Both the position numbers and the translations under genes were made by a program. A DNA stretch of 64,000 nucleotides. Origin: Panorpa germanica (lineage: Eukaryota; Arthropoda; Insecta; Mecoptera; Panorpidae). The notes under the pieces were generated by a model, which searched no databases, had not been told where the DNA came from, and saw only the letters and a program-made list of their open reading frames with translations. The stretch lies in NCBI GenBank assembly GCA_963678705.1, contig OY783213.1, positions 12,218,451-12,282,450 on the forward strand, read 5' to 3'. Shown here piece after piece: positions 1,561-63,871 of this stretch; position 1 is the stretch's first letter; every line of letters begins with the position of its first letter.

Positions 1561-2469
1561 TACACGGTGTCCAGAAAGGGTATCGGGTATTTGTAAGTTC
1601 AATGAAACAAAAATTATTTGTATGCAATAAAAAAGTGTATTGTTTATTATTAGCATATGAATTGGAGAATTATTTGGAAAAGATGACGTTATCCAAATGA
1701 TGACCGTTACGTTGCTGGCACTCTTCTAAACGGAAACGAAGATTGGCGATAACACGTTGACACATAGCTATCGATATTGCTGCCATTTCTGACCTGATGT
1801 TTTGCTTTAACTGGGTTAGATTCGTCGGATTGTTTTGATAAACCTTACTTTTAAGGTATCCCCATGCAAAATAGTCAAGCGGGCTAAGGTCGGGGCTTCT
1901 GGGAGGCCAGTTGATGTTACCCCTTCGCGAAATGACTTTATTAGGGAATAACTCGTTAACAACTTCCATTGAGTTATTTGAGGTATGGCAAGTGGCCCCA
2001 TCTTGCTGGAACCACGTTCTTGAGTTGAAACCTGCAAACTCCTGCAACTCTGGAACCAAAAAATTTCGCCTCCTAGGTCTTTAGTTAACGTTGTAAGCAT
2101 GCTATGTCATTGTTGAATGTAACTTATCTTCTGCAACCCATTGAATGCATGGCTCTAGTGTGGCCCCCTTAAGGCTCATAATAAAAACGTTATATAAATT
2201 TTATAAAGGAGTGTCTAGACTATCTCATATTAAAATTTGAGCCTCCTAGGTCTTTATTGTACCTTACAGTTAACGTTGTTAACTTTGAATCACCATTACG
2301 ATAATACGCTCGTACGCAAAATGCGCGATGCATCCCCGAGTACTGTTCCATCGTGACTAAAACTCCACAGAATGGCGGACGCCACGAACCCCTCCCCGCA
2401 CCCTTTAGACGCCCCGTTTCGAATATGGCGCGAAAACAAATACCCGATACCCTTTCTGGACACCCTGTA
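1561..2469 (-). mobile_element. Deleted mariner-family transposon (DD41D spacing)
   Basis: Inverted repeats of 34 bp bound the element (1561-1594 and 2436-2469, one mismatch; inner part GTGTCCAGAAAGGGTATCGG). Both ends carry TA, as expected for Tc1/mariner insertion. Inside, on the minus strand, lies the C-terminal part of a transposase. The N-terminal half is missing, and a duplicated internal block (around 2068-2092 and 2242-2278, GCCTCCTAGGTCTTTA) marks rearrangement. It is non-autonomous. Confidence 0.9.
1670..2059 (-). pseudogene. Mariner transposase C-terminal fragment
   Basis: About 130 codons remain open. The second catalytic Asp is in WFQQDGATCH and the third in SPDLSPLDYF. Counting gives 41 residues between them, so DD41D rather than the common DD34D or DD34E; this matches the rosa/Visitor type of mariner-like elements. 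The first Asp and the DNA-binding domain are absent, so the fragment cannot be active. The open frame has no ATG at its left limit and simply begins in the truncated region. Confidence 0.87.
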
Positions 2470-7380: not shown

Positions 7381-8123
7381 TCCCACCGATTAAGTGCACT
7401 CATGCGCTGCACTACAAAATATTTATAACTTTAAAAAGAAAAAGAAAAAGGAATCACAAAATATCATATAATACCCCAATTACATACTGACTTTATACTT
7501 AGGAAGTTGCAAAGAATCAACCTAATATCTATCGAATTGAATTAAATTTATTTTCGCTCGAAGAAATATTCCCTGTGTGTTCTCCACAGCGCACGTAGCT
7601 GCTAGCTATCGTGAGACAGAAGATTAAATATCATTTTCATCTATTCTTAAACCGAAATTTTTTTGCTAGTATTTCCTGTACTACTTTCTCCCCTACAACA
7701 TGGACCTTTCTTTATCCCTTGCTCTCGCTTGTTTAACCTTTCACCACTATTGACTGAATTATGCCTGCTTAATGGGATTGAAGTAAAGAGACATTTGTAG
7801 CGGGCATTGGCCGCAACTTCACAAGAGGAGACATAAATCAGCGTCCACTAAAAGGCGTGGCGTCTGTTGATGATGTGATTTATATTATGGGTCAGTGAAT
7901 GAACGGAAGTGACGTCAAAGCTTTAGACCCGTTAGTGATATACCGAATATAATATGTACCCCACATACGTGTCGATATTAGACCTCAGGATATGCGTAAA
8001 ATATTGAAGACGAAAAGTAAAATTGATAATACACCTATGTTACTTTTGTGGTCCTGCCTCATTCTAATATATTCAGGAAATATGTATATTCAACGTACAA
8101 CGTACTCGTATTTTGTACAATAA
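7381..8123. other. No gene seen
   Basis: No exon is supported. A CRE-like TGACGTCA lies near 7911. Confidence 0.45.
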
Positions 8124-8614
8124 AGTATCATTCCCACTCACTGCTTTAATTTAATTTTTTATTAAATTTAAATTGTTTAGCATATGGCAATACGCGTAGT
8201 CATTCACAGTACCATTTTCCTTTCAATTTATTTTTTAAGTTTTCTTAGTTTTTTTAGAACCTTACAAGGTCCATTGTCTTATATTAAAAATATTAAATTA
8301 AGAAAAACTATATTATATTATAATCTCTAAAATGTAACAATCTGTCAAAATGCAGTAAGATTTACTTTTAAAAAAAGTTTAATGCCAGTGTTTGAAAAAT
8401 ATAGAAGTGAAAACAATTTCTATTACTAATTGTTATTAAAAATAGCAATTTTAATTATTTCACATTTACTTACTAACGATGCATACGCTCCAACTAAATT
8501 AACTAAACTAAAATATAAATGTGAAAAGGAATTAAACGAGAACCTGAAATCTAGATTACAATATTAAATAAAAACAGTAAATTAAATATCAAAACAGTGA
8601 GTGGGAATGAGGTT
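8124..8614. mobile_element. PIF/Harbinger-like MITE (family A), complete
   Basis: Inverted termini AGTATCATTCCCACTCACTG and CAGTGAGTGGGAATGAGGTT, flanked by a direct TAA (8121-8123 and 8615-8617). Length 491 bp, non-coding. A 3-bp TWA target duplication is the hallmark of PIF/Harbinger elements. Confidence 0.85.
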
Positions 8615-9700
8615 TAATTCATTGTTTTCATTTTATATATTTTTCAAAACACCACTAAAACGCATTCTTATTATAATTAGCTCACTATATCACTCGACTT
8701 TATTGGGAACCTTGTGATGGTGTACTATCTTTGTCTAAAGTATTGCTACCTCTTAATAGTCATTCCAGTAATACATAGGTTACAACATCGGAACGAAAAG
8801 TTATATATCCATCGTTTATAACCTTTGCCGGGAAATACTTTAATTATAATAACAGTTGTTATTGCATCTTATCTTATAGGTTAGATTCTACAATGTGATT
8901 AAATGGAAAGAAACCTGTGTAAAAGCAATTTAATTTTTAATAAAGAGTGTGAAATGATAATAGAATCACGTTTATAATAACAAAACAGGAAAAACAAGAA
9001 AAACCATAAATCTCACTCTCCCAACACAGACTCAGCATCCCAAACAAGTGAGCAGCATCTCGCATCAAACATTTGTATTACTGTAAAGCGTTGTCTTCGA
9101 TAAAAACAATTCTATTAAATTTATACCTTTAGCTTTATCCCTTCTATTTTAAAGGATCATAGCTTCATAGTAAGGGTTCTGAAGTTAAGGGATGAGATCT
9201 TAGGGGGTATTTCGTGTTACAAAGGTCAGCGTTAACCTTTTTGCCTACAGCTCGGCCTACAGTATGTTCACCTACATCTATTACTACCACCACCCTCCAC
9301 CTCCGAACCAGTTTACAATCCTTGTTCGTCAGATTCATCCCTATCTTTGACCTGTACCACAAACCGATCGCATCATTTGGATGCCGAGAGGTGTTTAGGG
9401 GAGAGGGGTGAAACAGTGGATACTCGTATGTATCCCACGGATATATCGCATTATTCCAACTGACCAGCAATATTATTTATCTTCAAGTTTTGATTTAAAG
9501 CTGCTCCAATAAATCGGAAAGGAAAACCTATTATAGTGGTTTGTGTCTATAGTAGTAAAGATAATGGTTATTCTTTCGTATAGATAGAATCTCTAATTTA
9601 GACAATTATTACTTGAGCTAGGAAATCAGACAAAAGATAAAATATGATAATCAAATGTGATGATAATCTAAAAATTAAGTGATACAAATATTTTTCAATA
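8615..9700. other. No gene supported
   Basis: Overlapping open frames on both strands at 9165-9470 occupy a patch of higher GC. Neither has a recognisable domain or supporting signals. Confidence 0.45.
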
Positions 9701-10337
9701 ATGGGCTTGTGTCCTCATTTTTTAGTGGTCGATTTTTCAATTGTTGATTGAAATTGATGTTAATAAATGTGTATTGGCGTGTCTATTTTATTAAATATCT
9801 AAATATTGACGGAGATATAGCAATTAAAAATTTGAATTGTAGTTTTAGCGCTAGAAATGGTCGGCCATATTTGTATGACATGAAATGCATTTTAACGTCA
9901 GTTATTTGTTAAGTAGGTCAGTGTTGTGGTAATGTTTTGTAGCTGTTGGTACTCAAACAATCCAGTCAAGTCAAAGAATAATAAGTTTTTACTTTATTTA
10001 ACCCTGTTAAGGCAGACATGATATTGCAATTTTATTGTTCCTTGAAATAACTGTAAATAATATTTGATATTTTGATATATAAATACATATAGCAGAGATT
10101 TATGATCTGTAAGGTTGGTAACCTTACACAAGGATTGTGATGTCACATGCATTTGGAGTTTGTACAACGTTGAATCCCTTTAATAATTAAAGAGACAAAA
10201 TGACTTTTTTAATTGTTAATATCTCCTAACATATAAGGAGTTATTAAAAAATAATTGAACATTTGAGGTTCTAGTAACCCACTTTATCAATATATAGTAC
10301 AGTTTTATAGAAATTAAGACATAGGACACAAGCTTAT
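9701..10337. mobile_element. GGGCTTGTGTCC-ended MITE (family B), copy 1
   Basis: The ends are ATGGGCTTGTGTCC and GGACACAAGCTTAT. The non-coding 637-bp interior includes TTTTTAGTGGTCGATTTTTC and TTGATTGAAATTGATGTTAA, shared with the other copies. The superfamily is not clear because no target duplication could be resolved. Confidence 0.8.
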
Positions 10338-11554
10338 TGAGCTTTCTGTTTATCGGTATTGAATCAATTGCAAAAGGCACCAAAATGCGTCGTCTGCTCT
10401 TTGTTATTAAACAAAAACTTCTCGTCCGATGTGACTAAGATTTGTTTTGTATATAACCTACAAATTTGTAACATGAGAAAACAAAAGAAAATTGCAATGG
10501 ACATACTTTTTGATCTATGGTTTTACAAACTTATATACGTCAAGTACTTTTGTATGTCATTGACCAGGTGCGTTTGTCTAAATTTCGACAGATCATATGT
10601 CATACAATGTCAAGAAATATAGCGTTGGTTGAAAGCAGAACTTGACATTATCCTAACAACACGACTAAAAAAATTTCTTTCTCTAAGGATTCCTGAAATG
10701 TTAATGCTACATTTTTTTAAATATTTTTCCGATTTAAGGTTATTTCAACATTCAACTATTTCGTTTGTAGTTTAATTCATCAATACTCTTTGTATTTGCA
10801 AAGGGATGTAGAAATTCCTATAAAGGTTCGTTGAGGGGTTGTTTAATTAAAGGTACTATTTCATCAAAAGTTAAACGGAATAATTATATTAAAAGCAAAG
10901 GATATGAATTAAACCCAAAAGGTATTTCGTTGTATTGTTACTAAATTAAAAATAACACAAAGTTGCTTAGTAACCTCATAAATTAATTGATTATCAATAA
11001 AAGATAAATACGTGTAATTTTAAAGAACCATTGCGAAAAAATGTAAAGAAAAATTAATATGTATCAGAAGAAAGTTGAAATGTTACTAACTTAAAATTTT
11101 CTTTCTTTCCAGGTAAATGATCCTTCTTGTTAACTTGAATATAATCTTCCAGTATCTCTAAATAATGGACTTAAATCAGGTTTGGTATTTCAAATTAGAT
11201 TTTTAACATTGATCTGCTTCCTATATTGTCACCAATACGGTGACTTGTTAATAATATTGGCAGTGCCAAGATTGAAATTGCATACGATGTATGTTTAAAA
11301 AGTAAGGAAAATTTGTAATTTAAAAAGGCCGGTATATTTTTTAAAAATAGTTTTTTTCTGTTGGTAACACTGTAGTCAATTACTGTGCCTAATATAAACA
11401 AGATCTGCTTATTTGTTTTTTTACAGCAGCTGGTTGAATCAGTTAATTTAGATTGTGTTGTTATAAGAAATTGAAAGTTTTTTTTTTTTTTATTTATTTA
11501 TTACTTATTTAATACATGTTTTAACATAAAAGTTATAATTGTATTTTTGTGTTA
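10338..11554. other. No gene seen
   Basis: AT-rich region between family B copy 1 and the inverted duplication. Confidence 0.5.
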
Positions 11555-12153
11555 TCTAAATATTTTAATAATTAAGTAATTAATTTTTAAAATGCTAAGT
11601 TAAACTAAAATTAGGCAAAAAAATGAACTCAATTTCGCAGAAGTTGCATCTTTCAGCATTTGCTCAATGGGCCAAAGAAAACTGCGGCAAAACTTTGGTC
11701 GAAAGTATTCTAAATAAGATGTTGTAGGCATCATCAACTTTTGTAAATATGCTTTTATAGATATTTGAAGAATTAAAAACTAAGATAAATTATAAATGCA
11801 AATTAAGTACACAACTTCCTAATATATTAAGGATTAGACATGAGCAATTGAACTAGTGATAGTGTTGATAAGAATGAGCACATGAGAAAATCCTTTATAA
11901 GCATTTTTCTCTTAACATTTATCTAATAACTTTTTAATTATTTTTGAACTTCCCTTTTAAAGTTTTAAAAGATTTAGAAATTTTTGAAGATGTTCATCAC
12001 AAATTTTTTTAGTAGTTTTTATAAACATAGCTTTTTTAGTAGTTGTTCTTTATTTGTTGTTAGTTGTTGTTGAAGTTGAATATTTCATTAGTTGCAATCA
12101 TCCGCGTTTCAGTTGTTATAGTTGTAGGTACTTCATTAGTTGAGTTAACCGTA

Positions 12154-13253
12154 TTAAGGAGCTTCAGTAGATGGTGGTGTAGGAGTTGTAATTGTTGGTG
12201 GTGTAGTTGTTGGTGTAGTAGTAGTTGGTGTAGTAGTTGTTGGTGTAGTAGTTGTTGGTGTTGTAGTTGTTGGTGTAGTAGTAGTTGGTGTAGTAGTAGT
12301 TGGTGTAGTAGTAGTTGGTGTTGTAGTTGTAGGTGCTGTAGTTGTACGTCGAGGATGGCATGGTGGCTTTGGTTTTTTCTTTCCATGTTCACCACCTTTC
12401 TTAAAAGTTTCTAATTTGTTGTCGCTCTTCGGCTTCTGCGATTGATGGTCTGATTCATTATGTTCGTTGTTATTTTCCTTGAAATTGATTAAAATATTTT
12501 GTGAATATTCTAAAGATATTTGTTTACTGCTAGTTCATTAGTTATACAGTGTGGTATTCAATGGAGCCATATTTTCTGTATTATTGTGAATTGTTGTGTA
12601 TTTGAATAAATGTAATGGAAGCTACACTACTTTTTATTACAATCAACCAATTTCTTTACAAACACATTTCAAAATGCAATGCAAAGTGAGGATTGGAAAC
12701 GAATTACCGCGAGAGTGCAAAAGTGAATTTGATGTGTAGAAACATATGCAGACGTATAATTACGAATAATTTAACTTCTCAAATAAATTAATTAAAAGTA
12801 GCGGGATTATCCCGCTAAGCACAGTTACTTGCATTTAAGGTTTATCTAACATAACTAAAATTACTTGTTACGTAAATGCCCCTACTAAATATACGAGGTT
12901 CCGTGACCTATTTTTTGCTTTTGGTTTTCTGAAGAAAACTTTAAGAATTATAAAATTTCAAGAAATTTTTTTTAAGGATTAAAAATAATAAATAAAAAAA
13001 TTCAAGATAATAAATCCCTTTTAGATTAAATATAAGTTTCACTTCATAAAATATTACATGAATGTAAGGTAACAAAGGTAGGTGCCAACAATACATTCAG
13101 CTGATGAAATATACAATTAATTAATTAATGTAACTATACTGACAATAGCCAAGTCAAAATAAAATAACTTTAAAAAATAAAACTCACCACATGTTTGGCC
13201 AAGGTGGACCAACATAGCACGCCAATGATTATTAAAAGTGTTAATTGCTTCAT
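12154..13253 (-). CDS. Secreted Thr/Pro-rich mucin-like protein, left copy (2 exons)
   Basis: Exon 1 is 13253-13188 and exon 2 is 12477-12154; the 710-bp phase-0 intron has donor GTGAGT and acceptor TTTCAAG. The protein is 129 aa. Residues 1-19 ([19 protein letters not shown]) form a clear signal peptide. A hydrophilic Asn/Glu/Lys-rich segment with a single Cys (PPCHPRR) follows, then a Thr/Pro domain: TTTAP, eight perfect TTTTP units, TTTPP, ending in PPSTEAP and TAA. Such Thr-rich repeats are usual sites of mucin-type O-glycosylation, so a secreted slippery or adhesive protein (saliva, gut, cuticle, glue) is the likely class. That role is inferred from composition; I recognise no specific family. 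It pairs head to head with the right copy at 19860-20940. The start is fixed by the signal peptide and a TATA/Inr just upstream. A Thr-rich stretch in another frame continues past the stop. Confidence 0.72.
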
Positions 13254-13270
13254 CTTCTTACGATAAGTGT

Positions 13271-13301
13271 AATGATAGACTATTAAGCACCGCCTTATAT
13301 A
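13271..13301 (-). promoter_or_regulatory. TATA box and initiator of left mucin-like gene
   Basis: Reading the minus strand, TATATAAGG begins at 13301. An arthropod initiator TCATT has its A(+1) at 13273, 28 nt downstream. The ATG at 13253 follows after about 20 nt of 5' UTR. The spacing is that of a canonical TATA/Inr core promoter, usual for strongly expressed tissue-specific genes. Confidence 0.68.
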
Positions 13302-15606
13302 CCACTTATTTTTTGTTTTTTTCGCCACTAATTGAAGACAATATTGTTCCCATGCAAATATATTTTAATTTATATCAATTGCAATTAACCTGCAGTGTCA
13401 GTGCCGTAATCAGTGGTTTTCCTTCGTTACTTTAATTACTACTTTGACGAAGTAATTTTTGCAAATGATAGTCGTATAATTTCTATGGCCATACTGCCAG
13501 AAGTCTATGTATGGTACAAAACAATAATTTTCTTTTTTTAAACGTGAAACTTAAACTTATGAAGGCTGAAATCTTGCAACACCATTATTTCCTTATTTGG
13601 TTATTGTGTAAGATATGCAAAAACATTAAAAAAGTAAATAAATAAACTTTTTTAAGTGGGTTACTTACAATTTTCTTTAGATATTTCTAGTAACTCACAT
13701 TTAATATCTAGAAATTTTCATAGTGCCTCTTACTTAACTCATGGTTGTCACAAAATTTAATTAACATGACCAGTTAAAGAGAAATTACAGGTTCGACACA
13801 TAGTGAAATAATAATACTTCCTAATACAGCACTGTTATATTCATTAAAAATATTAAAATTATGTTTTTATTGAATTTAATAATCAATTTATAATGTAAAT
13901 GCTAATAATTATAATCGCTGTTAAGAAAATAAATATAATTAATTTTGTATATCTTGTATTTGTAATTAGAAGACAAAAATATTTACTTTGATTATAATAT
14001 TCATTTAATAATGCAATGCAGATTTCATTAAAAATATTGTTTTCAATAATAGTTGCATGTAATTAAAATATTTTGAACGTGGCAAAAACAATTTATGCAA
14101 TTTTTTTTTTAGGTGATATAATTTAACAATCTATGAAAATTTAAATAATAATAATTGGTTGATGAATCATTGAGATTCTTAAAATTTATGTGCATTATAA
14201 AATTTGCCCGCGAAACGCGGTTATTTAAATAGCAATTACAAAAATTGTCTTTTATGTAAAAAATGTTACCTAATAGATAACGTTCTGTGTCTTAATTTGT
14301 CTTTAGTCTTAAAGAATATTCTTGCAAGCAATAAAAAATTATTTAAGTATCCTTTAGACTCAATTTAATTACATCATGAAGGAGATGGAAACATCCTTAG
14401 TCGTTATTGCTTAAAAAATGCTGCCGGCAGTATTATTTTTGACAGTGCTGCGAAAGAAAAACCTAAGAAAAAGGCGTCTAAAGCATTTCTTCGAGAAATT
14501 TTTTTAATAGTGTAGTTATAAATTGTTCGACACGTACTACGCACATGCAACTGAACTTTTGAATCAGATTTCTCCACGACAACATCCTTAAACGAAATTC
14601 AATGGTATTTAAATGTATAAAGGATTAATATTTGCTTTGAAAAAGGTTTGCTTTTATAATTCCAAACACACCAAACTATTTTATTATTTCACAAAAAGAT
14701 TATCACATTTTTCATGAAATATAAAATAATAAAGGTTTATGTAAAAGGTAACTTTTATGTAAAATAAACCTTAAATTCACTAAATTATGTCTAATAGAAA
14801 TAATCTAATTATTTTCCACCCTGTACATAGTTACTTGTCTCATTGTATTGTACTTGTACATTGTACCCAACGCATATGTCTGTGCAGATTCTGTTAAATT
14901 CGTTTATAACGGATTAGTGTAATCCTTTTTTAAGACGTGGTATAAACGCTGACTGTTTAATGTGGACCGGTTCGAGTCTTTTACACTGGAACACAATTAC
15001 ACAGCGCAACCGCTAGAGCACGCTACGCCAGCTGAATGCACCACAGCAAAGAACCTTCTAAAGCAAAAGCTTCATCCCTAGCCCGACTCGAGCTTAATGC
15101 TTTTGTAAACTATCCTTCGTTTTATGTTATTATTTTATAACTTTGTGCATCATTTACGTTAATGACGTCATTGTATCATGTTCTTAATAAATTAACAAAT
15201 AATTAAACAAAACTTGGAAACGTGCTTTGTTTGTAACTCGCTTAATTATTGGGATAAATATAAGAGTACATTGATAGAAACAAATAATATTACAAATTTA
15301 AAAAAATATCTACATAATTGTTTATATTTGTCTGTTGGATTCTTTGTAATACCTTGGCATACATCCCCGGGTATGGAAAATTATAAAGTAAACAAATTAT
15401 TCACATTACACATTTCATAGTAACGGTTGTTACATTTAGAAGTTTTGCTGAACAGAACTGTAGCCTTTGGAAAATAATTGATCTATGTCGAATCGGTCAT
15501 TACTTAAATTTCGTTTTAACGTTTTTTCATTCGTTTCTGATCTATAAATGATTATTTAAGCAGTTAGTGTATAATTTTTATACTTAGCGACAGTTCTTAA
15601 GTAAGC

Positions 15607-15831
15607 GGCCTATTTTGTAACTACTTACTTGACTTCTGTTAAATACTGATGATTTTTCAAAGCCCTATAATTTACAAATTAAGTTACTTATGCCAGATTC
15701 AAGATATGGTATTCATTTTGGTCTTCTGATAGTTTTGTGTAAACATACATAGCATTGTTTACAAAATACAGGCCTTTGAACAATCGTCAGAAGTTAACAG
15801 ACGTCAGGAAAGCAGTTACAAAATAGGAGCC
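15607..15831. mobile_element. Palindromic MITE
   Basis: The first and last 60 or so bases are imperfect inverted repeats (GGCCTATTTTGTAACTACTT and the reverse of GGCTCCTATTTTGTAACTGC, then both arms with GTCTGTTAA-like blocks). Total length is about 225 bp with no coding capacity. It lies in the spacer of the mucin-gene inverted duplication. Confidence 0.65.
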
Positions 15832-16977
15832 TTAATCTCAGCATTCATTTAATCTTATGTCACTAAACTAATACAATTATTTATAATATTTCATCTTTTT
15901 TATTTTTCATTAATCCAATAAAAAATCCAATAAAATACAATAATTTTTCTTTTTAAAAACTTCTATTAAATCTTGTAACAATAATTAATGTATTGGAACG
16001 TGGCTAGACTTTACCGGGGCGTAGATAAAATATAAAATCCGGACTTCCCACTCTTCTATGTACATATTTCTAAATTAAGAGAAGAATTAGCTATCACTTG
16101 AAATCAATGCTATCCTATAGCGCGGATTAATCTTTCTGCAGACCTGTTTCAAGCAACAAAAATTAAATTATATCTACTCTTAATTATTCTCCCGGAATCA
16201 ATTTCACCGATTGAATCCGGGTCGCTTACACTTCCCTTTCTTGTCTATTGGTGAATCCAGGCCTGGACATACCGTATACTACTACTACTACGAGTACATC
16301 TGCAACAGCGCGAAACTTACCTTACAATAAAGTTACCCGCGGCTTCACAAGATTTGACAGTTTCAAAAAGTTTCACTTTCCAGGTAACTTTCAAAAACTT
16401 TACTTTATAATTTAAGATTTTAATTTGACAATTATGACACAAAACTATTTTATATTAAACTTAAACTTGCAAAAAACAAACTTTCTTGTTTTTGATATCC
16501 AATTACCATCCATCCAGAAAATAAACAAAATTAAATAATGCCATACGTTTACTTTATGTAAAAATAAAAGCATTTGTTATATGAAAATATATTATAATGT
16601 GTATGCTTATTGATTCTAGTGGAAAACGGAAACTAAAAGATGAATGAGCTTAACCAAAAGCGTCTAAACGTGCTTTTAAAGTCTATGAAGTCATTAAATT
16701 ATCTGGCCATTTCATTTCCTCATACACATTATTTTGATTCAGTTGGATTAAGAATAAGTAAATTCAATTATATATTCTGTTTTGCTTTTTGGAAAATGTT
16801 TTAAATTGTAAGCTGTTTGTAGGAAACGGAGACTATCAATCCACAAATTCTAATTTAACTCCAGTTTTAACCATTTTACATGATTTCTACCAGAATGATC
16901 ATTCAATGACGGAATTACTAGAGTATTAAATTGTTTTTGTAAAATGCCTAATAGATTATGAGTTTGAGAAAGGTTTT

Positions 16978-17063
16978 GTCTAATATAACAAATGTTATCT
17001 TTCACGTAAACAATGTCACCTAATGTACAACGTTTTGTGACATAATTTGCTGCTTTTTGGAAC
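16978..17063. repeat. Short interspersed repeat E, spacer copy
   Basis: Contains CACCTAATGTACAACGTTTTGTGACATAAT-type sequence (key parts TACAACGTTTTGTGAC and GCTGCTTTTTGG). Relatives are at 12825-12925 and 20193-20295 (inside the mucin introns), 41677-41755 (plus) and 44683-44768. A weaker one lies near 14250. Confidence 0.5.
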
Positions 17064-18930
17064 TAAATAATCCTTTTTGTACTAACCATACAACTTCTCA
17101 AGGATTTTTACTCCTTTAAACGTTTCAAAATCTTAAGAATTTTTTTAAAAAATAAAAAGCGTTTAGAATTGCTAGAAAATATTAAAGGGTTATTTAGGGC
17201 ATTCCAATTTTATGAACTCTATGCGTTTTGTACAAAAATCAACATTTTCTTATTTGTTAAAATGTTCAAATATACATAAAACTTTTTAATTTTATTTCCT
17301 GTGCTTCACGGAACATCTTTCCTTTAACACTCATACTCCCACAACTCTCTGACAAAACAACGCATTCTGTAATATCTAATTATATTCAGCTTGTAATGTT
17401 AAGTCCTTTTAATGAGTAATCCCTTAAATTAATTTGCCTCTTTTAGAAAATCAACATCAAATATTTTCTCGCGTCACGTTAAATCTCGTCTCGACGCCCG
17501 CTGCGGCGTCTTGTCGCTTATACTTAACTACGGAACGTCATAAATTTAAGATGTGTAATTATAATTTTATTAACCATGCTATTAGACTTAATTATAGTAG
17601 CCTGCAATTAGTATTTAGTCTAATTACTATTTATGAGTGTTGCTACACTTTATTTCCTTACTGTTTTGCCCATTTTATAGTCGTGATTTATTTTATATTA
17701 TTATTTTAAATAATATTAACAATAGGTCATTAGTTTTAGTCAACGTGACTTACTTTTATTGTTAATTTATTTTTAATATACCGGTTACTATAATTAAAGT
17801 ACCCAGTAAACAATTTGGTGAAGTGTCCTGTTTTGTGACGTTTCTATTACTATTGCATTTCAATTATAGTTCGCATCAACTTTATCTTCATTTGTATTCC
17901 GACAGGTGGTCTGGTTTCGCTATTTGTAGCCAATCGAATAGACATTTCATATGAACGACTGTGAGAACTGAACTGTATAAACTGAACAAAAAAATCATAT
18001 GCAAGTTCAATATGATGGCAAAGTGACTTTAAAATGTTTGACGGTAGAACTCCTCAAATTTTCAACTGCAATTTGCAACTGCGATTTGTACATTATTTTT
18101 TAAATTCCTTTAATATGAAAAACATATTAATATTATAAATTCTTTGGAATCTCTAGCTATCTGACACCACTCAAAAAATTAAAAGAAAAAATCTGATGAA
18201 TGTATTTTGAAAGTATCATTCTCTTATTTCTATCAATAAAATTTTTAATATTCTGATTTTATTTTTTGTTAACGCTTTTAAAGTACGTAATTAAATTTAA
18301 TAATACGGTAATCAACTTCATCTGCATCTTAAACATTTTCAAAATGTCATGAACATAAAGATTATGAAATGAGATTCTCATATCTGGATATTTTAATGCT
18401 TTACGGTAGATAATCATAAACGTTAAGTTTAAAGTCTACAGCGGCATTAACAGCGTTGCCGTATTTGTGTTAATTAAGGATATTCCCCTTCTTTGACAGT
18501 GATAACTACTATTAAGTATATCCATTTAATTTAGATTAGAACAAGATGTCAATTTGAGTTCGTTGGTATTCTTGGTGGGCCGCATAGAATATGTCCTGTA
18601 ACTAAATAATATGCTTTCAATAAAATACTCAACTATGGTAATACCATTAATAGTACCCATACAGAGTTGAATATGTTGGGCTCAGGTCCAAATGCATGCA
18701 ATTCCCGAGCCAACGTGGCCAAAACCAGTTAACAAGCAATCACGAACTTTACATGTCAATTAAAATAGTTTTAAAATAGAAACAAAAAACTAATTTTTAT
18801 ATTTGTGTGAAAAATAATGTAGATAATACAGATGCATCCATTGATTTAGAAAGAAATAAACCAGGATTTGCTATATATATGAACAAATATATTTAAGATA
18901 TTATAAATTTAAATTAAATAATAGTAATAT

Positions 18931-19072
18931 ACCTATGCCCTCTAAAAAATCTAGGTAGTGGTAGGGACTTAAGGTTCCAGAGTAGTCCGGCTCTGGCAGT
19001 TTACCGGCAAATGCGGACGACTCTGGAACCTTAAGTCCCTACCACTACCTAGATTTTTTACAGTACATAGGT
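18931..19072. repeat. Long palindrome (foldback) at the duplication breakpoint
   Basis: Arms 18931-18989 and 19014-19072 are inverted repeats of about 59 bp around a loop of about 24 bp. They are near perfect apart from a 6-bp mismatched patch near the outer ends. The core arm reads AAAAAATCTAGGTAGTGGTA onward. The transcript would fold into a long hairpin. It ends 11 bp before the right inverted-duplication arm and has no counterpart at the left arm. Confidence 0.85.
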
Positions 19073-19811
19073 GAAACGCGCATAATGAAATCTGCATTGC
19101 ATTATTAAATGAATATTATAATCAAAGTAAATATTTTTGTCTTCTAATTACAAATAGAAGATATACAAAATTAATTATATTTATTTTTTTAACAGCGATT
19201 ATAATTAGTGGCATTTACATTATAAATTGATTATTAAATTCAATAAAAACATAATTTTAATATTTTTAATGAATATAACAGTGCTGTATTAGGAAGTATT
19301 ATTATTTCACTATGTGTCGAACCTGTAATTTCTCTTTAACTGGTCATGTTAATTAAATTTTGTGACAACCATGAGTTAAGTAAGAGGCACTATGAAACTT
19401 TCTAGATATTAAATGTGAGTTACTAGAAATATCTAAAGAAAATTGTAAGTAACCCACTTAAAAAAGTTTATTTATTTACTTTTTTAATGTTTTTGCATAT
19501 CATACACAATAACCAAATAAGGAAATAATGGTGTTGCAAGATTTCAGCCTTCATAAGTTTAAGTTTCACGTTTAAAAAAAAAAAAATTATTGTTTTGTAC
19601 CATACATAGACTTCTGGCAGTATGGCCATAGAAATTGTACGACTATCATTTGCAAAATTACGTCGTCAAAGTAGTAATTAAAGTAACGAAGGAAAACCAC
19701 TGATTACGGCACTGACACTGCACGGTAATTGCAATTGATATAAATTAAAATATATTTGCATGGGAACAATATTGTCTTCAATTAGTGGCGAAAAAAACAA
19801 AAAATAAGTGG

Positions 19812-19842
19812 TATATAAGGCGGTGCTTAATAGTCTATCATT
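19812..19842 (+). promoter_or_regulatory. TATA box and initiator of right mucin-like gene
   Basis: TATATAAGG starts at 19812 and the initiator TCATT has its A(+1) at 19840, 28 nt later. The ATG is at 19860. The motif set and spacing are identical in the left copy, so the core promoter was duplicated intact. Confidence 0.68.
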
Positions 19843-19859
19843 ACACTTATCGTAAGAAT

Positions 19860-20940
19860 ATGAAGCAATTAACACTTTTAATAATCATTGGCGTGCTATG
19901 TTGGTCCACCTTGGCCAAACATGTGGTGAGTTTTATTTTTTAAAGTTATTTTATTTTGACTTGGCTATTGTCAGTATGGCTGCATTAATTAATTAAATGT
20001 ATATTTCATCAGCTGAATGTATTGTTGGCACCTAACTTTGTTACCTTACATTCATGTAATATTTTATGAAGTGAAACTTATATTTAAACTAAAAGGGATT
20101 TATTATCTTGAATTTTTTTATTAATTATTTTTAATCCTTAATAAAGCTTCTTGAAATTTTATAATTCTTAAAAAGGTTTTCTTCAGAAAACCAAAAGCAA
20201 AAAATAGGTCACGAAACCTCGTATATTTAGTAGGGGCATTTACGTAACAAGTAATTTTAGTTATGTTAGATAAACCTTAAATGCAAGTAACTGAGCTTAG
20301 CGGGATAATCCCGCTACTTTTAATTAATTTATTTAAGAAGTTAAATTATTCAGAATTATACGTCTGCATATGTTTCTACACATCTAATTCACTTTTGCAC
20401 TCTCGCGGTAATTCGTTTCTCATCCTCACTTTGCATTGCATTTTGAAATGTGTTTGTAAAGAAATTGGTTGATTGTAATAAAAAGTAGTGTAGCTTCCAT
20501 TACATTTATTCAAATACACAACAATTCACAATAATACAGAAAATATGGCTCCATTGAATACCACACTGTATAACTAATGAACTAGCAGTAAACAAATATC
20601 TTTAGAATATTCACAAAATATTTTAATCAATTTCAAGGAAAATAACAACGAACATAATGAATCAGACCATCAATCGCAGAAGCCGAAGAGCGACAACAAA
20701 TTAGAAACTTCAAAGGAAGTTAATGAACATGGAAAGAAAAAACCAAAGCCACCATGCCATCCTCGACGTACAACTACTAAAAAACCAACAACAACTACAA
20801 CACCAACAACAACAACACCAACAACTACAACACCAACTACTACAACACCAACAACAACAACACCAACAACTACAACTCCAACAACTACAACACCAACAAC
20901 TGGAACTCCTACAACTACTGAAATTCTTACCTACAGTTAA
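19860..20940 (+). CDS. Secreted Thr/Pro-rich mucin-like protein, right copy (2 exons)
   Basis: Exon 1 is 19860-19925 and exon 2 is 20638-20940; the 712-bp phase-0 intron starts GTGAGT and ends TTTCAAG. The protein is 122 aa. Exon 1 encodes the same signal peptide as the left copy. In the mature part the first 24 residues encoded by exon 2 (ENNNEHNE through KLET) are identical, then SKEVN replaces FKKGG. The repeat domain has TTTKKP, TTTTTP, six TTTTP units and TTGTP, and ends EILTYS-stop instead of STEAP-stop. The two paralogues thus differ in repeat number and C-terminus while the signal peptide and Lys-rich region are kept. Salivary glue or mucin-like function is inferred from composition only. 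The upstream TATA box and initiator place the transcript start about 20 nt before the ATG. Confidence 0.72.
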
Positions 20941-21522
20941 CTCAACTAATGAAGTACCCACAACTATAACAACTGAAACGCAGATGATTGCAACTACTGA
21001 AATATCCAACTTCAACAACAAATCAACAACAACTACTAAAAAAGCTATGATTATAAAAACTACTAAACAATTTGTGATGAACAACTTCAAAAATTTCCAA
21101 ATCTTTTATAACTTTAGAAGGGAAGTTCAAAAATAATTAAAAAGTTATTAGATAAATGTTAAGAGAAAAATATTTATAAAAGATTTTCTCATGTGCTCAT
21201 TCTTATCAACACTATCACTAGTTCAATTGCTGATGTCTAATCCTTAATATATTAGGAAGTTGTGTACTTAATTTGCAATGTCATGCATTTATAATTTATC
21301 TTAGTTTTTAATTCTTCAAATATCTATAAAGGCATATTTATAAAAGTTGAACAGCTTATTAATTTAGAATACTTTCGACCAAAGTTTTGCCGCAGTTTTC
21401 TTTGGCCCATTGAGCAAATGCTGAAAGATGCAACTTCTGCGAAATTGTGTTAATTTTTTTGACTAATTTTAGTTTAACTTAGCATTTTAAAAATTAATTA
21501 CTGAATTATTAAAATATTTAGA

Positions 21523-22902
21523 ATTAATAAATAATAATATTTATTTATAAATATTATTATTTCATAACTTTTGTATTTTTATCAATAAAAACTTATTTTG
21601 TGCCTAATAATCACCGTTCCGTTTATTATGACATGCCTCAATCCGTAAAATATTCCCCACTTTCAGGTGCACAAATAATTCAACTTTTTGGAGCCCACGC
21701 CAAAGACACTACATTCTTTCGAAAGCTTATAGTCTAAGATAAAAGTGTCTAAAACAGTTCTTCTTAATATTTATTTGTTTTAAAGTTATGAATTTTTTAA
21801 CAATATTCTGTGTTTTACGCGTTTTCACTATTTGTGAATTTTTATTAACAACGGTTTTAAACATTATACTTTGGCAACTTCTGGACTATGTAGTAGACAC
21901 TTCAAGCAGTAATCCAGAATTTTTTCAGATTCTTTGAAAGCTTAGAAAACTGGAAAAGCTCAACTGTTCCCTCAAAGACCCAGTGTACACACCGTGTCTC
22001 GAAAAATAGAGTGTTCACACTCAATTTTTTCAATATTCTTTAAATCCCATTATAGTATTCTACAGCTTATTTAAATATTTATTTGACTATAACTATTACA
22101 ACTCATAACTATTAAAACGCGATTGCACCAATTATTAATATATTTTAATATTTAAAATATATATTACCCCCACATTGCTTAATGGTGCTAGTTAAATTTT
22201 CACAGCAGATTTTCTATGTGTGAAAATAAATTCGAATCATAAAATGAAATATCCAGTTCCACATCAAGCAAAAAGTATTAAATTGATACTACAATACGTG
22301 CGTGTCCGAGAGAAATAAATTTCACTGTAACAAAAAGCTCGCAGATGATTTCGCAGGATCTTGTCTCCACCAATAAAACATTCGTTTTGTTTTATACGGC
22401 ACTATATACGAATGTACATACATACACCCTCTCCCCGTAAAGAACGTTACAAAATAAACGCTGCTGTTTTAATAAAAATAAAATATCTATGTACGAGTAT
22501 ACCATTTCAAGCAATTCAACAGATAGATAGAACCCAATGCAAGACAAAACACACAACAGATGCCTCTCGGTTTGGCGTAGCGCGTAGCCTAGTTCGCTTG
22601 TCACTCCTGGACGTCGGACGTTCTACTGCTCAGACAATGAAGACAAATGGACATCGCCACATGTGCTCAGGGTATATCCTTAAGTGTCGCACTCACCAAA
22701 AGTCACTTATTCTTAATGAAAAATAAAACGAGTATGCACACAAAAAAACAGGCATGTTACAGTTTTGTCTGTGCGATGAGTACTTTGAGCATTGGAGAAT
22801 AATATCCTTTACTGTTAGTGGGCTGTTACATAGTTCAAATATTGGTTGTGGTTCTCCTTTGAATAAGTAGGTATGTGTGATATTTGTATGACCCACTTGC
22901 AA
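21523..22902. other. No gene supported
   Basis: A patch of higher GC near 22560-22660 has overlapping frames on both strands but no splice or domain evidence. Confidence 0.45.
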
Positions 22903-23544
22903 ATGGGCGTGTGTACTCATTTTTTAGTGGTCGATTTTTCAATTGTTGATTGAAATTGATGTTAATAAATGTGTATTGGCGTGTCTATTTTATTAAATAT
23001 CTAAATGTCGACATGAGAGATATAGCAATTAAAAAGTTGAATTGTAGTATTAGCACTGGAGATGTCGGCCATTTGTATGACGTGAAATGCATTTTATAAG
23101 TCAGTTATTTGTTCATTAGGTCAGTGCTGTGGTAATGTTTTGTTAATAAGTTTTTACTTTATTTAACCCTGTTACGGCAGACATAATATTTATATTTTAT
23201 TGTTTCTCGAAATAGCTGTAAATAATATTTAAAATTTTAATATATAAATAGATATAGCAGAGATTAGGTTGAGAGTAAGGTTGGTAACCTGTAAACTTGT
23301 CAAAGTTCTGTCAAGAATATATCTCTTTTACGCTCTGTTGTATAAAAGAGATAGCAGTTGTGAGGTCTTATGCAGTTGGAATGTTGTACAACGTTTTTAA
23401 CGACCTTTTTAATTGTTAATATCTGTTTTAATTGTACATATAAGATGTTATTAAAAAGTAATTGAACATTTGAGGTTCTAGTAACCCACTTTATCAATAT
23501 ATAGTACACTTTTATAGAAATTAAGACATAGGACACAAGCCTCA
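22903..23544. mobile_element. GGGCTTGTGTCC-ended MITE (family B), copy 2
   Basis: Same orientation as copy 1. The left end has drifted (ATGGGCGTGTGTACTC) and the right end is GGACACAAGCCTCA. It belongs to a sub-group with the internal segment AACTTGTCAAAGTTCTGTCA plus TTGTATAAAAGAGATAGC, also seen in copies 4 and 6. Confidence 0.78.
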
Positions 23545-24060
23545 CTTCCCTTAATGTGGTATCAGTGTTACTGCTAACGTTATCTACGTTTGGTGAGTAC
23601 TCAGCTTAATACTGCGTTAAACATATAGCTACAGAACATTCTAGAATGTTACAGAATTCCAGAATGCCATAGAATGGCCGACGTGTGGGAGATTTATTTC
23701 TTGTTTCTGATAGCCTGAACACTAGCACCTAGGGTCGTAGGCTGTGTTGACAGCCACCCTAATATCTCACCCTCTAATGTATAAGAATATGTGGTGATGA
23801 GGGGAACTATAATACAATGGGGGGTGAGAGGATGACAAATACCACGTGCTGATGTGATTTGTGAATACAAAGCGGCTTAAGTATTGAGATGTGCGATAAC
23901 GAATTTAATTTAAAATTACATTTATTATATAAAAAAAGGAAAAGGTTATAGACAATTGGATTTGAAATAGAAATTCGATGGAATTGTCCGAGACAATATG
24001 GGACATGTCTTAACATGGAAATAAAGATGTGATACCATTTGCTTACTTACTATTAGTACA

Positions 24061-24614
24061 ATGGGCTTGTGTCCTATGTCTTAATTTCTATAAAAGTGTA
24101 ATATATTAACAATTAAAAAAGTCATTTCGCCTCTATAATTATTAAAGGGATTCAACGTAGTACAAACTTCCTAATGCATGTGACATCACAATCGCTACTA
24201 ACCTTACAGCTCATAAATCTCTGCTATATGTATTTATATATCAAAATATCAAATATTATTTACAGCTATTTCAAGGAACAATAAAATTTCAATATTATGT
24301 CTACCTTAGCAGGGTTAAATAAAATAAAAACTTATTATTCTTTGACTTGATTTGATTATTTCGACTACCAACAGCTACAAAACATTACCACTGACTGCAC
24401 TGACCTACTCAACAAATAACTGACGTTAAAATGCATTTCACGTTATACAAAATTCCATTTCTAGCGCTAAAACTACAATTCAAATTTTTAATTGCTATAT
24501 TTCCGTCAACATTTACATATTTAATAAAATAGACATGCCAATACACATTTATTAACAACAATTTCAATCAACATTTGAAAAATTGACCACTAAAAAATAA
24601 GGACACAAGCCCAT
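24061..24614. mobile_element. GGGCTTGTGTCC-ended MITE (family B), copy 3, inverted
   Basis: From ATGGGCTTGTGTCC to GGACACAAGCCCAT, in reverse orientation to copy 1 and shortened by an internal deletion after the TTCTATAAAAGTG segment. It is only about 0.5 kb from the inverted copy 2. Confidence 0.8.
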
Positions 24615-26397
24615 TCCTATGCATTGCATTTTCTACCTTTTCATTTGTGACTTTATTCTCCTTACTAATTGTTTCAGTTATCAATTTCGATTTTAAATAC
24701 TTTTAGAGTAGTTACCTCTTTTATAACTAAACATTGCAAACGTTAAAAGTTCACCAACCCCTCTACGTTAAGTGATAAAGATTGTCTTAGAAATCTCTGT
24801 TTTTATTATTAATATAATGATTATTTTGAAAAGACGTTTCCTAAATCTTTTAAATAAATTTATCAACACAATTTCATTACCTCACTAATAGTACCTTCCA
24901 TTATAGCTTTTACATGTAGTTAGCTACAAAGTTTAAGTCATGACTCCTAAGTCAAACTTGTTATTTACTTCACGTTATAGAAACACTCAAAAACTTACTA
25001 CTATGTATAGTAAACAAATTCTTCAAAACCAAACTAATTTCTATTATAAAGTTTGTTTTCGTAGCAGGTTATGTAAGAGGTGATGAGGAAGAAAGAGGTG
25101 AGGGGATAGGTCTAGGTAAAGATATTAAAGATTAAAGTGGCAACTGGCGCAAGAGTTGAGCAGTGTTATTATTATAGAATTATACTCGTAAGTACGATAA
25201 ACTTTTAGTTTTGAAGAATAAAAGATATAGGCAGATCGAATAATGTTATATATCAATCGATAGAGATCGTGTACTCTTCTTGAGTAAACTTTGAAATTAG
25301 ATAAATAATAAATAAGGAAATGTCAACAGCACGCATCGTTCTCCGTCGGTCAGTGAGCCAAGTGGTGCTCTTTAAGAAAAGATATTATAAACGTTTTAAA
25401 ATATATTGTTTTAATCTGACATTCGTTATTTTCTGCATAAATAAATCCCTACTCCCAGTAGAGATTTATAAAATAAAAATATATAATTAAATTAAATAAT
25501 AAATTCGCGCTCGATTAAGTTCTTACGCGATGTCCCTTATAGAAAACCACAGTTTTTATAAAACTTAACAATTAGTTTAGAATTAAATAAATAACAATTC
25601 CTATTCCAGGCACTGGTTTATGACTTACAAGGATTTGTCTCTGATATTTTATCCAAACAACTAGCAAATAACATTTTTACCAAATATCCAGAAGTTGGCA
25701 CTAGTTTATTTCATAAAAGCATGTTATGTTTGTTAAGGTTATCAGATCTCTTAAATAAACTTCAGCGACGTCAGCACCAAATTTGCTCATATCAGGTATT
25801 AAACTATTTAATAAAAGTGTTTTGTAATTGTAAGAGTAACAATAAAAGTGGGAAACAGTTAAAAATAGCGAGTATTTTATTAACAATCTCTTCCTTGACT
25901 AAAACGCATGGCTTACTGCATTTCATCTTACGTGTAGGCAAGCAATTCAGGTCCTAATTAATTTCTGAATCTACAAATTCACCTGAGACGGTCCATGACA
26001 CTGGTCCGTGTCATTAACAATGAACAACTAAACACATTCTAATAAACTCTGAAGATTATTACAGACATCTTTAATTCAGATAATCACAACAACCCTAATA
26101 AATAACGTGAAATACTTGTACAATTGCTGTAAGAAGACGAGGGAGGACAAACAAAGGGTATACAAGATACTTAAATCTGTGGGGTGTAGTTTTAGCCACA
26201 CTGTATTTAGATATTACATATGTACAGTACGAGTAAGTTTGATGCTGTAAGTATCATGCCTTATACTTATTGTGTCACTAATGGTTCATTTAAAGAATAC
26301 GACAGGGCTTTACTCTTATTAAAGTCATAAATGTTCTCATGACGTAAACAAAAGCACAAGACGAGGCATTTGCTTTTAGAAACTATATATATATATA
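24615..26397. other. No gene seen
   Basis: AT-rich with no repeats recognised within the window. Confidence 0.45.
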
Positions 26398-33900: not shown

Positions 33901-35374
33901 TTTTAAATCTGTAATGTTTTAGGCGAATCATAAAAATCTACTTCAATTTTAAACTCTCGGAGTAGCGTATCCCCTTAATAATGAGAACTGGAGTTTTAAA
34001 ATCTAGTTAACAATGACATCGTTAGCGTTATGACTGAGTCTGACTCAGTTAGCGACATGAATTGAAACGAATTAGTTATTATGATGCAGTTAAACCCAGT
34101 CTGGGTTTCTGTATACATAATGAAATATAACTAGTGAAAGATATTAAACAGGGCCTTATAGAATATGTACACAACTGCCCATAGCTTTTAAACTATATTA
34201 ATAAATAGGGGTATCCCTTTTGACAATTAAAACTAACGTTTTCATACGAATTGATTTAATAAGGCCAAAAGAAAATATTACTGTATATATTAAGTTATTA
34301 TTATTGTAATTATTTTATGAAAATTTTAGTCATTATTAAATATACTTTTAAACAAAATAGATAAACAAACTGTAAATAAAAATTATCAAAAAAGTGCTTT
34401 AAACACCTTTTGCTTTGGCTAAAGTTGCACTGCGGAAAATAGCGCGAAAAGAGACATCTAGAACATTTTTAAAAAGTATTTTTTCTAAAGAGTATTATGT
34501 CTGGATTTACCGGGTTGAAGAATGTAAATTATTTTTTATTGATACTGTTAATAGAATTTCTATTGATAACAGTTACCGTAGCATATATTTAACGACGCTC
34601 TGGACAATATTTCATTTACAAAACGTTATTTTGCATCCTTTTATCATAATTTTTAAAAACCAACATAAATGTCATAAACTTAAATTTATAGAATAATGGC
34701 TGAATTAATATTCCTTTAAATAAAACAAAACTTTAATACAATCTCGTAAAATATACTCGTATTTCAGGATAAAAGTAGTCCTTATTGGTCGTAGCGCCGT
34801 AGCCCGTAGCGCGTATATAGTCCGTAGCTCATAATCCATGGATTCAGGAGTCTGTTCTACAAATTCACAAAGCGTAGAAGATTTAACGTGTGCTGTAACC
34901 GTTCTTTTCTAAGCTCGTTTGATATTCTGGAAGATCGTCTTGTCTTTGTGGCGTGTCGTTAGATGTCACCCTAGTCGCTAGGAGCTTGCGAAGCTTTCAG
35001 AGCTTTCTACTACGGCACACCGGCGTGATTTAGTTATCTAATAAAAAAGAAACAGCAGACAAATTTGTCATTTAGGGATCTTTTAAAGTAGTTAAACGAA
35101 ATTGAAAATTGGATTATATCGACGAGATAAAACGTTCTTTTTAATATATAACAATTCAATTGGAACTCCATATTTTCATTAACTTTTTTTTTGTATATAA
35201 TAGAAAACAGTTGAGCGGACAAGAAATTTTACATGCTTCAAATGAGAGGTGGGCCTGAAAATTATTAACTTTGTAAAATATAAAACATTATTCTTAGTCT
35301 GTAAACAAAAATTTTAAATAATCTATCGAAAAGTGGATTCGCACTGGAACTACCTTAAACTTGGTGTACTCTCA
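30931..35374. other. No gene seen
   Basis: Mostly AT-rich. Includes the CRE/E-box palindrome (33121), a CT-rich run (33282-33310), and a GC-richer patch at 34790-34840 with tandem CGTAGC motifs. Confidence 0.45.
33121..33140. promoter_or_regulatory. Palindromic CRE/E-box composite
   Basis: ACGTCACGTGACGT (33123-33136) is a perfect palindrome with an E-box CACGTG at its centre. It overlaps a full CRE TGACGTCA (33131-33138). These are recognised sites for bHLH and CREB/ATF factors. No gene start was identified beside it, so a regulatory role is only suggested. Confidence 0.4.
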
Positions 35375-35878
35375 AGTATCATTCCCACTCACTGCTTTAA
35401 TTTTATTTTGTATTTAATTGTTTAGCATTTGGAAATACGCGTAGTCATTCACAGTATCATTTTTAATTTAATTTATTGTTTAAGTTTTCTTAGTCTTTTT
35501 TAGAACCTTACAAAGTCCAATAAATATTAAATTAAGAAAAACTATATTATATTATAACTTCAAAAATGTGACAATCTGTCAAAATGCGGTAAGATTTACT
35601 TTTAAAAAAAGTTTAATGTCAGTTTTTCAAAAATGTAGAAGTGAAAACAATTTCTATTACTAATTGTTATTAAAAACAGCAACTTTAATTATTTCACCTT
35701 CAATTTTGTCCAACTGTTGAACTGTCAAAATTTATATAACTAAAGACGCATGCGTACCAACTAAATTATCTTAACTTAAATTAAAACACAAATGTGAAAA
35801 GGAATGCTTAAACGAAAACCTGAAATCTAGATTACAATATTAAATAGAAGCAGTAAATTAAATATCATAACAGTGGCT
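35375..35878. mobile_element. PIF/Harbinger-like MITE (family A), damaged right terminus
   Basis: Left end AGTATCATTCCCACTCACTG is intact. The right end reads CAGTG then GGCT, so 12 bp of the inverted repeat have been deleted. The flanks TCA and TTA are a slightly decayed 3-bp duplication. Confidence 0.8.
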
Positions 35879-36789: not shown

Positions 36790-37490
36790 ATAATGTTACA
36801 TATTCGTCATAGCCACTATCTAACATTTCTTATACATATTTAACATTTTATAATTCTTTTTGACAAATTTCTAAATATTTAAATAATTCACTAATTCATT
36901 TTGAATCACTTAACGAAAATTTAGTATTAATAGGAAAAGTTAATCACATCTAATATTTCACTATTGAATTTTGATCTTTCTAACCTATAATTTATGCATT
37001 CAAATATAATATGATCCAAAGTTCCTTCTTCATCACATTGACATCTATCGTCGGTTTTAATATTAATTTTGTACAGGTGAGCTGGAGTTTTACAATGATT
37101 ACTTTTGATTCTGATTATAGTTGAAATAATTTTATGGGACTCATTTCTAAACCATCTTTTCTTACTTAAATTTGGATGAAAAATATATTAATCTCTTCCT
37201 TTTAACTGACTTTTGTTAATGAAATCTTGATTTCTCAAATTGAAGTTTAATTTTTTGATTGTATTAAAAATTTCATATGAAAGTAATTTCACTTTCATCT
37301 CATTTTCCAAATTTATTGATTCCTTTGCCAATTTATCCGCAATTTTGTTTCCTCTTATTCCACAATGTCCTGGTATCCACATAAATATTATGATATTATT
37401 TTTAGTTATTAAATTGAAATACAGCTCCTTAATTTTGCATGTCAAAATATCATTATTTGATGTTACATATTAAATTAATATATTAGTTAA
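36790..37490 (-). pseudogene. RNase H domain and 3' end of the same LINE, copy 2
   Basis: The frame 37445-37188 encodes an RNase H segment (FMWIPGHCGIRGNKIADKLA). The GH and AD-LA motifs place it among I/Jockey-type non-LTR retrotransposons. After a frame break the CQCDEEGTLDHIIFEC motif and the TAGTGGCTATGACGAA tail follow, as in copy 1. Truncated and frameshifted, so inactive. Confidence 0.85.
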
Positions 37491-63835: not shown

Positions 63836-63871
63836 TAACTCGACAATTTTTTCATCATATTTTTTTTTCAG

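Follow-up and report, generated by a model that had tools for sequence, protein, structure and literature searches.

A probable three-gene family of secreted Thr-rich mucins in the scorpionfly Panorpa germanica: two short, inverted copies and a giant relative on chromosome 10

The closest described counterparts of two short Thr-rich genes located in a 64,000-bp stretch of chromosome 10 of the scorpionfly Panorpa germanica (C10:12,218,451-12,282,450; hereafter, the window) are found among the secreted, repetitive proteins of other insects. The Drosophila Sgs glue genes (Sgs1, Sgs3, Sgs7, Sgs8, and Eig71Ee) resemble the scorpionfly pair in having a signal peptide, a short first exon, and Thr/Pro repeats; according to the portions of the published accounts used here, the Sgs3 repeats take the form KPTTT or KPTTTP in several species, the genes are defined by an intron that splits the signal peptide in phase 1, together with a conserved C-terminus, and they also include long and repeat-less members, inverted paralogues, and gene conversion (PMC6352337, PMC10835880). 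The same portions describe the Drosophila new glue (ng) genes as intronless, with products that are Ala-rich inside and Arg/Lys-rich at the C-terminus (PMC6352337, PMC10835880); like the pair, they encode short Thr-rich secreted proteins, some resembling the longer mucin-like Sgs3, and as far as these excerpts go their loci are unstable. Drosophila mucins were delimited by Syed et al. (2008), in the section of that paper used here, by a Ser+Thr content above 25%, the presence of repeats, Pro/Thr/Ser (PTS) repeats covering at least one third of the length, and a length of more than 300 aa (PMC2515642). Finally, moth and caddisfly silk mucins and sericins are, like the pair, secreted and repetitive in the excerpts at hand (PMC9745057, PMC11092239, PMC9432349), in which two exons are given for a silk mucin of caddisflies, Muc1, the same number as in the pair.

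In our opinion, the two scorpionfly genes are likely to be short, probably protein-coding members of a family of three secreted Thr-rich mucin genes on chromosome 10, which would have been truncated and then copied in inverted orientation. A first-pass annotation of the window, made from its letters by a model, had recognized the pair; its membership in a family that includes a giant mucin of 1431 aa, and the remnant of a C-terminus behind both of its stop codons, are additions to that description as judged from sequence comparison.

Each arm of the inverted duplication holds one two-exon gene with a TATATAA box, a start region, a 22-codon signal exon, a phase-0 intron, and a Thr/Pro tract. 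The parts are as follows, with coordinates given as positions in the window:

11555..14030, minus strand: left arm of the inverted duplication, the probable parental copy (arm alignment and flank comparison)
13293..13303, minus strand: TATA-type core promoter of the left gene, GGTATATAAGG (arm comparison and alignment)
13188..13253, minus strand: coding sequence of exon 1 of the left gene, signal peptide (translation and genome search)
12478..13187, minus strand: intron of the left gene, 710 bp, phase 0, of which 12940-13075 resembles a dispersed repeat
12154..12477, minus strand: exon 2 of the left gene up to the stop, with the KPKPPC segment and eight TTTTP units; protein of 129 aa
19083..21522, plus strand: right arm of the inverted duplication, the probable derived copy (arm alignment and flank comparison)
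19810..19820, plus strand: TATA-type core promoter of the right gene, GGTATATAAGG (arm comparison and alignment)
19860..19925, plus strand: coding sequence of exon 1 of the right gene, with a signal peptide identical to that of the left gene (translation and genome search)
19926..20637, plus strand: intron of the right gene, 712 bp, phase 0
20638..20940, plus strand: exon 2 of the right gene up to the stop; protein of 122 aa

The 2.4-kb inverted arms about 5 kb apart that had been noticed in the first pass are confirmed, with 5052 bp between their inner edges, and the splice sites predicted there at 13187/12478 and 19926/20637 are present. The promoters had been called identical, which holds for the TATA and start region over 19726-19858, with a single mismatch at 19859; the signal exon, whose product was judged to be a signal peptide by eye and hydropathy, is identical in 66 of 66 bases. 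Exon 2 of both genes begins with ENNNEHNES, which is followed by the KPKPPC region and then by the Thr/Pro tract. The reported count of eight versus six perfect repeat units also holds: the left gene has eight TTTTP units, and the right gene has one TTTTTP followed by six perfect TTTTP (seven, if the TTTTP inside TTTTTP is counted). The tract makes up 0.49 of the length on the left and 0.46 on the right, Ser and Thr together account for 48/110 and 45/103 mature residues, respectively (44% in both), and the isoelectric points are 9.5 and 9.4. The mature chain of each short protein contains one Cys, located in KPKPPC, and each protein ends right behind its tract, the C-termini being PSTEAP and TTTEILTYS.

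The third member of the family was found by a genome search with the 22-residue signal exon, which returned three places, i.e., the two genes of the pair (E 1.1e-7 twice) and C10:9,462,172 (E 0.0055). The reverse search with the signal exon of the third gene returned the same three places, although searches of this kind could miss relatives that have no recognizable signal exon. The third gene lies 2.77 Mb from the pair at C10:9,462,172-9,456,470 and matches it at 72% over 333 bp (E 4e-46), a stretch that runs from the promoter across exon 1 into the intron. Its intron (C10:9,462,106-9,460,700) is 1407 bp long and in phase 0, its exon 2 spans C10:9,460,699-9,456,470, and it has the donor GTGGTGAGT and the acceptor CAATTTCAAG followed by GAAA in common with the pair. 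All three genes have the promoter, the signal exon, an intron in phase 0, the splice words, and a KPxPPC segment in common. The product has 1431 aa and, after residue 19, consists of 61.6% Thr and 11% Pro; Cys14 and Cys19 lie within the signal or at its end, while Cys81 and Cys1401 lie near the ends of the mature chain. A unique N-terminal part containing KPEPPC and a unique C-terminus containing Cys1401 share one frame across the approximately 4 kb of repeats that they flank, an agreement rarely kept by chance, and by this anatomy the third locus is a real gene. Within the genome of the species, the start of exon 2 of the pair matches only the pair (2/2 candidates scored), and the C-terminus of the third gene matches only itself (1/1 candidates scored).

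The comparison with the third gene extends to the DNA behind both stop codons, where the following features were recognized:

11914..12061, minus strand: DNA behind the left stop that can be aligned to the third gene where this encodes its C-terminus (identity at 92 of 141 aligned bases)
21014..21160, plus strand: DNA behind the right stop aligning with the same coding C-terminus (94 of 140 aligned bases identical)
20924..21133, plus strand: open Thr-rich frame of 70 codons, out of frame with the right gene and continuing past its stop

In a local alignment of the 3' side with the third gene, 402 of 508 aligned bases are identical, with a score of 334.5 against a maximum of 186.5 in 60 shuffles. 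The three-way MAFFT alignment, from which the two counts for the coding part are taken, is lower than the local one; in its next 250 bases 149 of 198 (left) and 153 of 201 (right) aligned bases are identical, so that the untranslated region (UTR) has been preserved better than the coding part. The similarity to the C-terminus and 3' UTR begins at about 21014-21027 on the right and runs from 12061 down on the left, and the stretches from the stops to these points (12061 and 21014) have no assignable counterpart in the third gene. The Thr-rich frame behind the right stop is explained in part by the C-terminus of the third gene; within 20941-21150 the longest open stretch has a P value of 0.0145, and within 20941-21076 the number of Thr codons in the best frame has one of 0.001 (2000 dinucleotide shuffles each). 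The genes had been described as intact, which is correct insofar as their frames are open, but, compared with the third gene, both appear to have lost the C-terminal end. Since both short genes stop before the remnant, the loss of the C-terminus most likely preceded the inverted duplication, unless conversion spread the loss from one copy to the other. Farther into the 3' UTR, a 20-base block, TATTAGGAAGTTGTGTACTT, at 11805-11824 and 21250-21269 agrees exactly between the two arms and the third gene, while its surroundings differ by about a quarter.

Compared with the systems introduced above, the pair resembles mucins in the sense of Syed et al. (2008), having the Ser+Thr content, the repeats, and the share of PTS repeats described there (judged without the repeat finder of that study); at 129 and 122 aa the two proteins are much shorter than 300 aa, a length that the third gene product exceeds. 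Both proteins are below 180 aa, carry a signal peptide (by eye), and contain runs of four Thr, in keeping with the limits for ng proteins, which include stretches of at least three Thr. They differ from ng in possessing one intron and in having neither the Ala-rich interior (Ala is outside their eight commonest mature residues) nor the Arg/Lys-rich C-terminus. The pair is Thr-rich, whereas moth silk proteins are Ser-rich and caddisfly Muc1 is Asn/Gly-rich in the excerpts used; silk mucins of these orders have only their general kind in common with it. No Pfam or NCBIfam model exceeded its curated cut-off for the pair proteins, or for their exon 2 by itself; FAM163 (18.6 of 28.3 bits) and a conotoxin model (17.1 of 25.1 bits) matched below theirs, from the signal peptide onward, and were read as chance. 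A search of the PDB with a pair protein gave one match (E 2.1e-5), confined to the Thr/Pro tract. Taken together, the Pfam, NCBIfam, and PDB comparisons, which included no insect protein collection, did not place the pair in a named family, and no account of the scorpionfly family was found among the matches listed in the open-access literature, which is not a claim about all print. Of the viral contigs searched with the 66-residue N-terminal peptide, 21 stretches fit the pattern and none was confirmed. It is likely that the pair works like an insect secreted mucin, and the secreted, mucin-like character attributed to it in the first pass is supported at the level of sequence.

The history of the duplication was approached by comparing the arms with each other and with the third gene. 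Aligned with each other, the arms differ at 82 of 2421 aligned bases, and at 59 of 2256 outside the repeat tract. When arm identity is taken block by block, it peaks in exon 1 (100%), followed by the core promoter and 5' UTR (98.7%), the inner flank (98.4%), the intron (97.5%), the 3' flank (96.0%), and exon 2 before the tract (95.6%), and is lowest in the Thr/Pro tract (86.1%, with five gaps). Introns and flanks had been considered almost as similar as the exons; their identity is indeed high, but introns and flanks are in fact more alike than exon 2. The rapid change that had been proposed is evident in the repeat tract. Compared with each other, the sequences flanking the two arms score no higher than shuffled DNA, with 26 for the outer 1 kb (shuffle maximum, 39) and 31 for the inner 2 kb (shuffle maximum, 42; 100 shuffles in each case). 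The middle of the intron (12940-13075) resembles a dispersed repeat (38 of the best 40 places, out of 377 candidates, lie outside the pair), and since this repeat sits in both arms, it was there before the duplication. Both introns also contain a near-perfect 17-base palindrome, AGCGGGATAATCCCGCT, at 12800-12816 and 20299-20315, which is unchanged between the copies.

Two features next to the arms bear on which copy is older and on how the arms arose:

14062..14279, minus strand: left upstream flank past the arm, still similar to the upstream DNA of the third gene
18931..19080, no strand assigned: hairpin-forming dispersed element; the right arm begins at 19083

The left flank scores 72 against the upstream DNA of the third gene (maximum in 200 shuffles, 47), although part of it has further matches within the 40 kb and may belong to a dispersed repeat; past the inner end of the right arm, nothing rises above shuffles (34 against a maximum of 43). 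However, a 36-bp block adjoining the left arm (E 1.2e-7 in 40 kb) is collinear with the DNA upstream of the third gene. Since the left flank matches the third gene and the right flank does not, the left gene is probably the parent and the right gene the derived copy. The hairpin element (fold z -14.6) has copies on many chromosomes, as seen in the best 40 of 547 candidate places scored, and other copies match up to 19080, which is the last base of the query; it is possible that the element caused the break, or that it arrived later.

Insertion of an inverted copy is not the only way to obtain such arms. In Drosophila, inversion by staggered breaks leaves inverted duplicates, as described in the part of the account used here (PMC3355041), and inverted copies on both sides of the 5-kb spacer fit this published mechanism, so that a small inversion of the spacer is possible, if on balance doubtful. 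Given that the original upstream flank lies on the left, such an inversion should have placed the original downstream flank on the right; however, the outer flanks score no higher against the third gene than shuffled sequence does (left, 29, with a shuffle maximum of 44; right, 33, with one of 38), and this comparison does not decide between an inversion and an inserted copy.

A second alternative holds that the pair represents decaying remnants, i.e., pseudogenes of a duplicated mucin gene, the frames of which are open only since the repeat has no stops. Both genes do end before the C-terminus that the third gene has, further indels (10-bp and 1-bp differences) lie behind the stops, and exon 2 and the 3' flank diverge more than the intron and promoter. 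Moreover, the nonsynonymous differences are clustered: the copies agree throughout the first 73 bases of exon 2, after which, still before the tract, six mismatches fall within 13 bp (12392-12404 / 20711-20723; P 1.5e-5) and change four amino acids (FKKGGE versus SKEVNE), for which one complex event is likelier than six. What speaks against decay is the preservation, in both copies, of the TATA box, the splice words, the signal exon, and an unbroken frame over the 44 codons that precede the tract. The copies do not differ in exon 1, the comparison of this exon with the third gene gives a dN of 0.17 and a dS of 0.37 (66 bp only), and 16 of the 20 departures of tract units from their consensus fall at third codon positions (left, 10/12 in 10 units; right, 6/8 in 8), i.e., they are mostly synonymous. 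We regard decay as rather unlikely.

It should be noted that several considerations weigh against the reading of the pair as truncated, working members of a mucin family. The family is described here from genomic sequence, and the derivation of short genes from a long one is based on three genes of a single species. Since the units copy each other, the departures counted at third positions are not independent, and the dN/dS of exon 1 comes from 66 bp. The part of exon 2 ahead of the tract gives no sign of constraint, with 5.5 nonsynonymous against 0.5 synonymous differences, and the open frame of non-repeat exon 2, 64 codons long, does not exceed chance (P 0.087). No selection is needed to keep a stop-free array of 15-bp units open, and loss of a C-terminus is also expected of a decaying gene.

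Gene conversion had been offered, together with recent origin, as the reason why the arms are alike, and for conversion the indications are weak. The longest run identical between the arms is 289 bp (12405-12693 / 20422-20710), whereas 5000 shuffles averaged 173 (P 0.016), and the unevenness of differences over 100-column bins has a P value of 0.051. This run allows conversion but does not prove it. The data on selection and conversion are compatible with working genes; early decay also fits them.

Quite improbable, in our view, is a family of the Drosophila Sgs type, serving as salivary glue, silk, or gut lining, the members of which gene conversion keeps alike. For Sgs genes, a signal peptide, Thr/Pro repeats that change rapidly, and inverted paralogues have all been described in the portions of the accounts used (PMC6352337, PMC10835880), and Thr-rich internal repeats like those of Sgs1, Sgs3, and Eig71Ee are present in the pair. 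However, the Sgs genes belong to a different insect order, and their intron interrupts the signal peptide in phase 1, whereas that of all three scorpionfly genes follows codon 22 in phase 0; a phase-1 reading of the latter would need a much weaker donor (by eye). The pair also ends behind its tract, where Sgs proteins continue into their conserved C-terminal segment; the third gene does have a C-terminus, with one Cys. The glue function suggested in the first pass, understood as the Sgs type, is therefore not borne out by intron phase and C-terminus. The larvae pupate in cells in soil burrows, according to the part of the genome report used here (PMC11464959), so a puparial glue would not be expected, and the conversion signal is weak, as described above. 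As for an assembly artefact, which the first-pass annotation had named as a possible undoing of the pair, it is extremely improbable that duplicated haplotypes or a fold-back join made the arms: the same part of the report mentions 97 corrected joins and 14 haplotypic duplications removed, but also 52-fold HiFi reads with Hi-C and a quality value (QV) of 59.9 (PMC11464959), and the arms show inverted order, 3.4% mismatches, indels, and unequal repeat numbers, with relatedness to the third gene shown by the left flank only.

If the pair belongs to a truncated and inverted branch of a three-gene mucin family, as we prefer, its origin and function could be pictured as follows. An ancestral copy would have lost its C-terminus and had, or acquired, a short tract; the truncated copy would then have been duplicated in inverted orientation, with the left gene as parent. 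The signal peptide would direct the proteins to the secretory pathway, and the Thr/Pro tract would be O-glycosylated and form a stiff, hydrated rod, as can be expected from the available parts of accounts of insect mucins (PMC9409817, PMC2515642). A disulfide may be formed by the Cys of KPxPPC. Having one Cys close to either end of its mature chain, the giant could link into a network, while the short forms, with one Cys, could only pair or cap and would adjust the viscosity of a mucus-like secretion.

The likely path from long to short mucin would thus lead through loss of the C-terminus first and inverted copying later. One giant and two dwarf mucins with a common promoter and signal exon may make chain length and cross-linking ends comparable within one animal.

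Male scorpionflies give females a salivary mass as a nuptial gift. One may speculate, at a low probability, that the giant and the two short mucins are structural proteins of this gift, with the one-Cys forms tuning the two-Cys linkage. If so, the history of copying and truncation would represent evolution by sexual conflict at the level of a gel, and genes behind a classic mating system would become testable.

Elsewhere in the window, an LRP2-like receptor gene extends from approximately 58.4 kb on, and a short-chain dehydrogenase lies at approximately 49.5-51 kb; neither neighbour points to a tissue. Outside the window, the mitochondrion of the assembly has the order I-Q-M, unlike the derived M-I-Q of moths, and its COX1 starts with CGA as that of the caddisfly Semblis atrata does; a search for caddisfly L-fibroin gave no match, but neither did any of its 14 controls. 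ARAGORN (bacterial code) found no tRNA in the window, and Rfam gave no match at gathering scores. The remaining features are mobile elements or their pieces:

1673-2080, minus strand: transposase-like remnant (by eye, no Pfam match)
37191-37469, minus strand: RNase H piece of a retroelement (Pfam)
8108-8620, 35365-35875, 45042-45540, 59062-59576, 63314-63840: second element family, five copies with CATTCCCACTCACTG ends
9700-10339, 22902-23541, 24060-24615, 40040-40602, 51544-52180, 62145-62733: terminal-inverted-repeat element, six copies

A mobile-element pattern from the window was encountered in 3 viral contigs, over 32 bp only, and was read as chance; the pattern of another mobile element of the window had 0 matches in prokaryote genomes. 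Copies of the terminal-inverted-repeat element are situated on both sides of the duplication.

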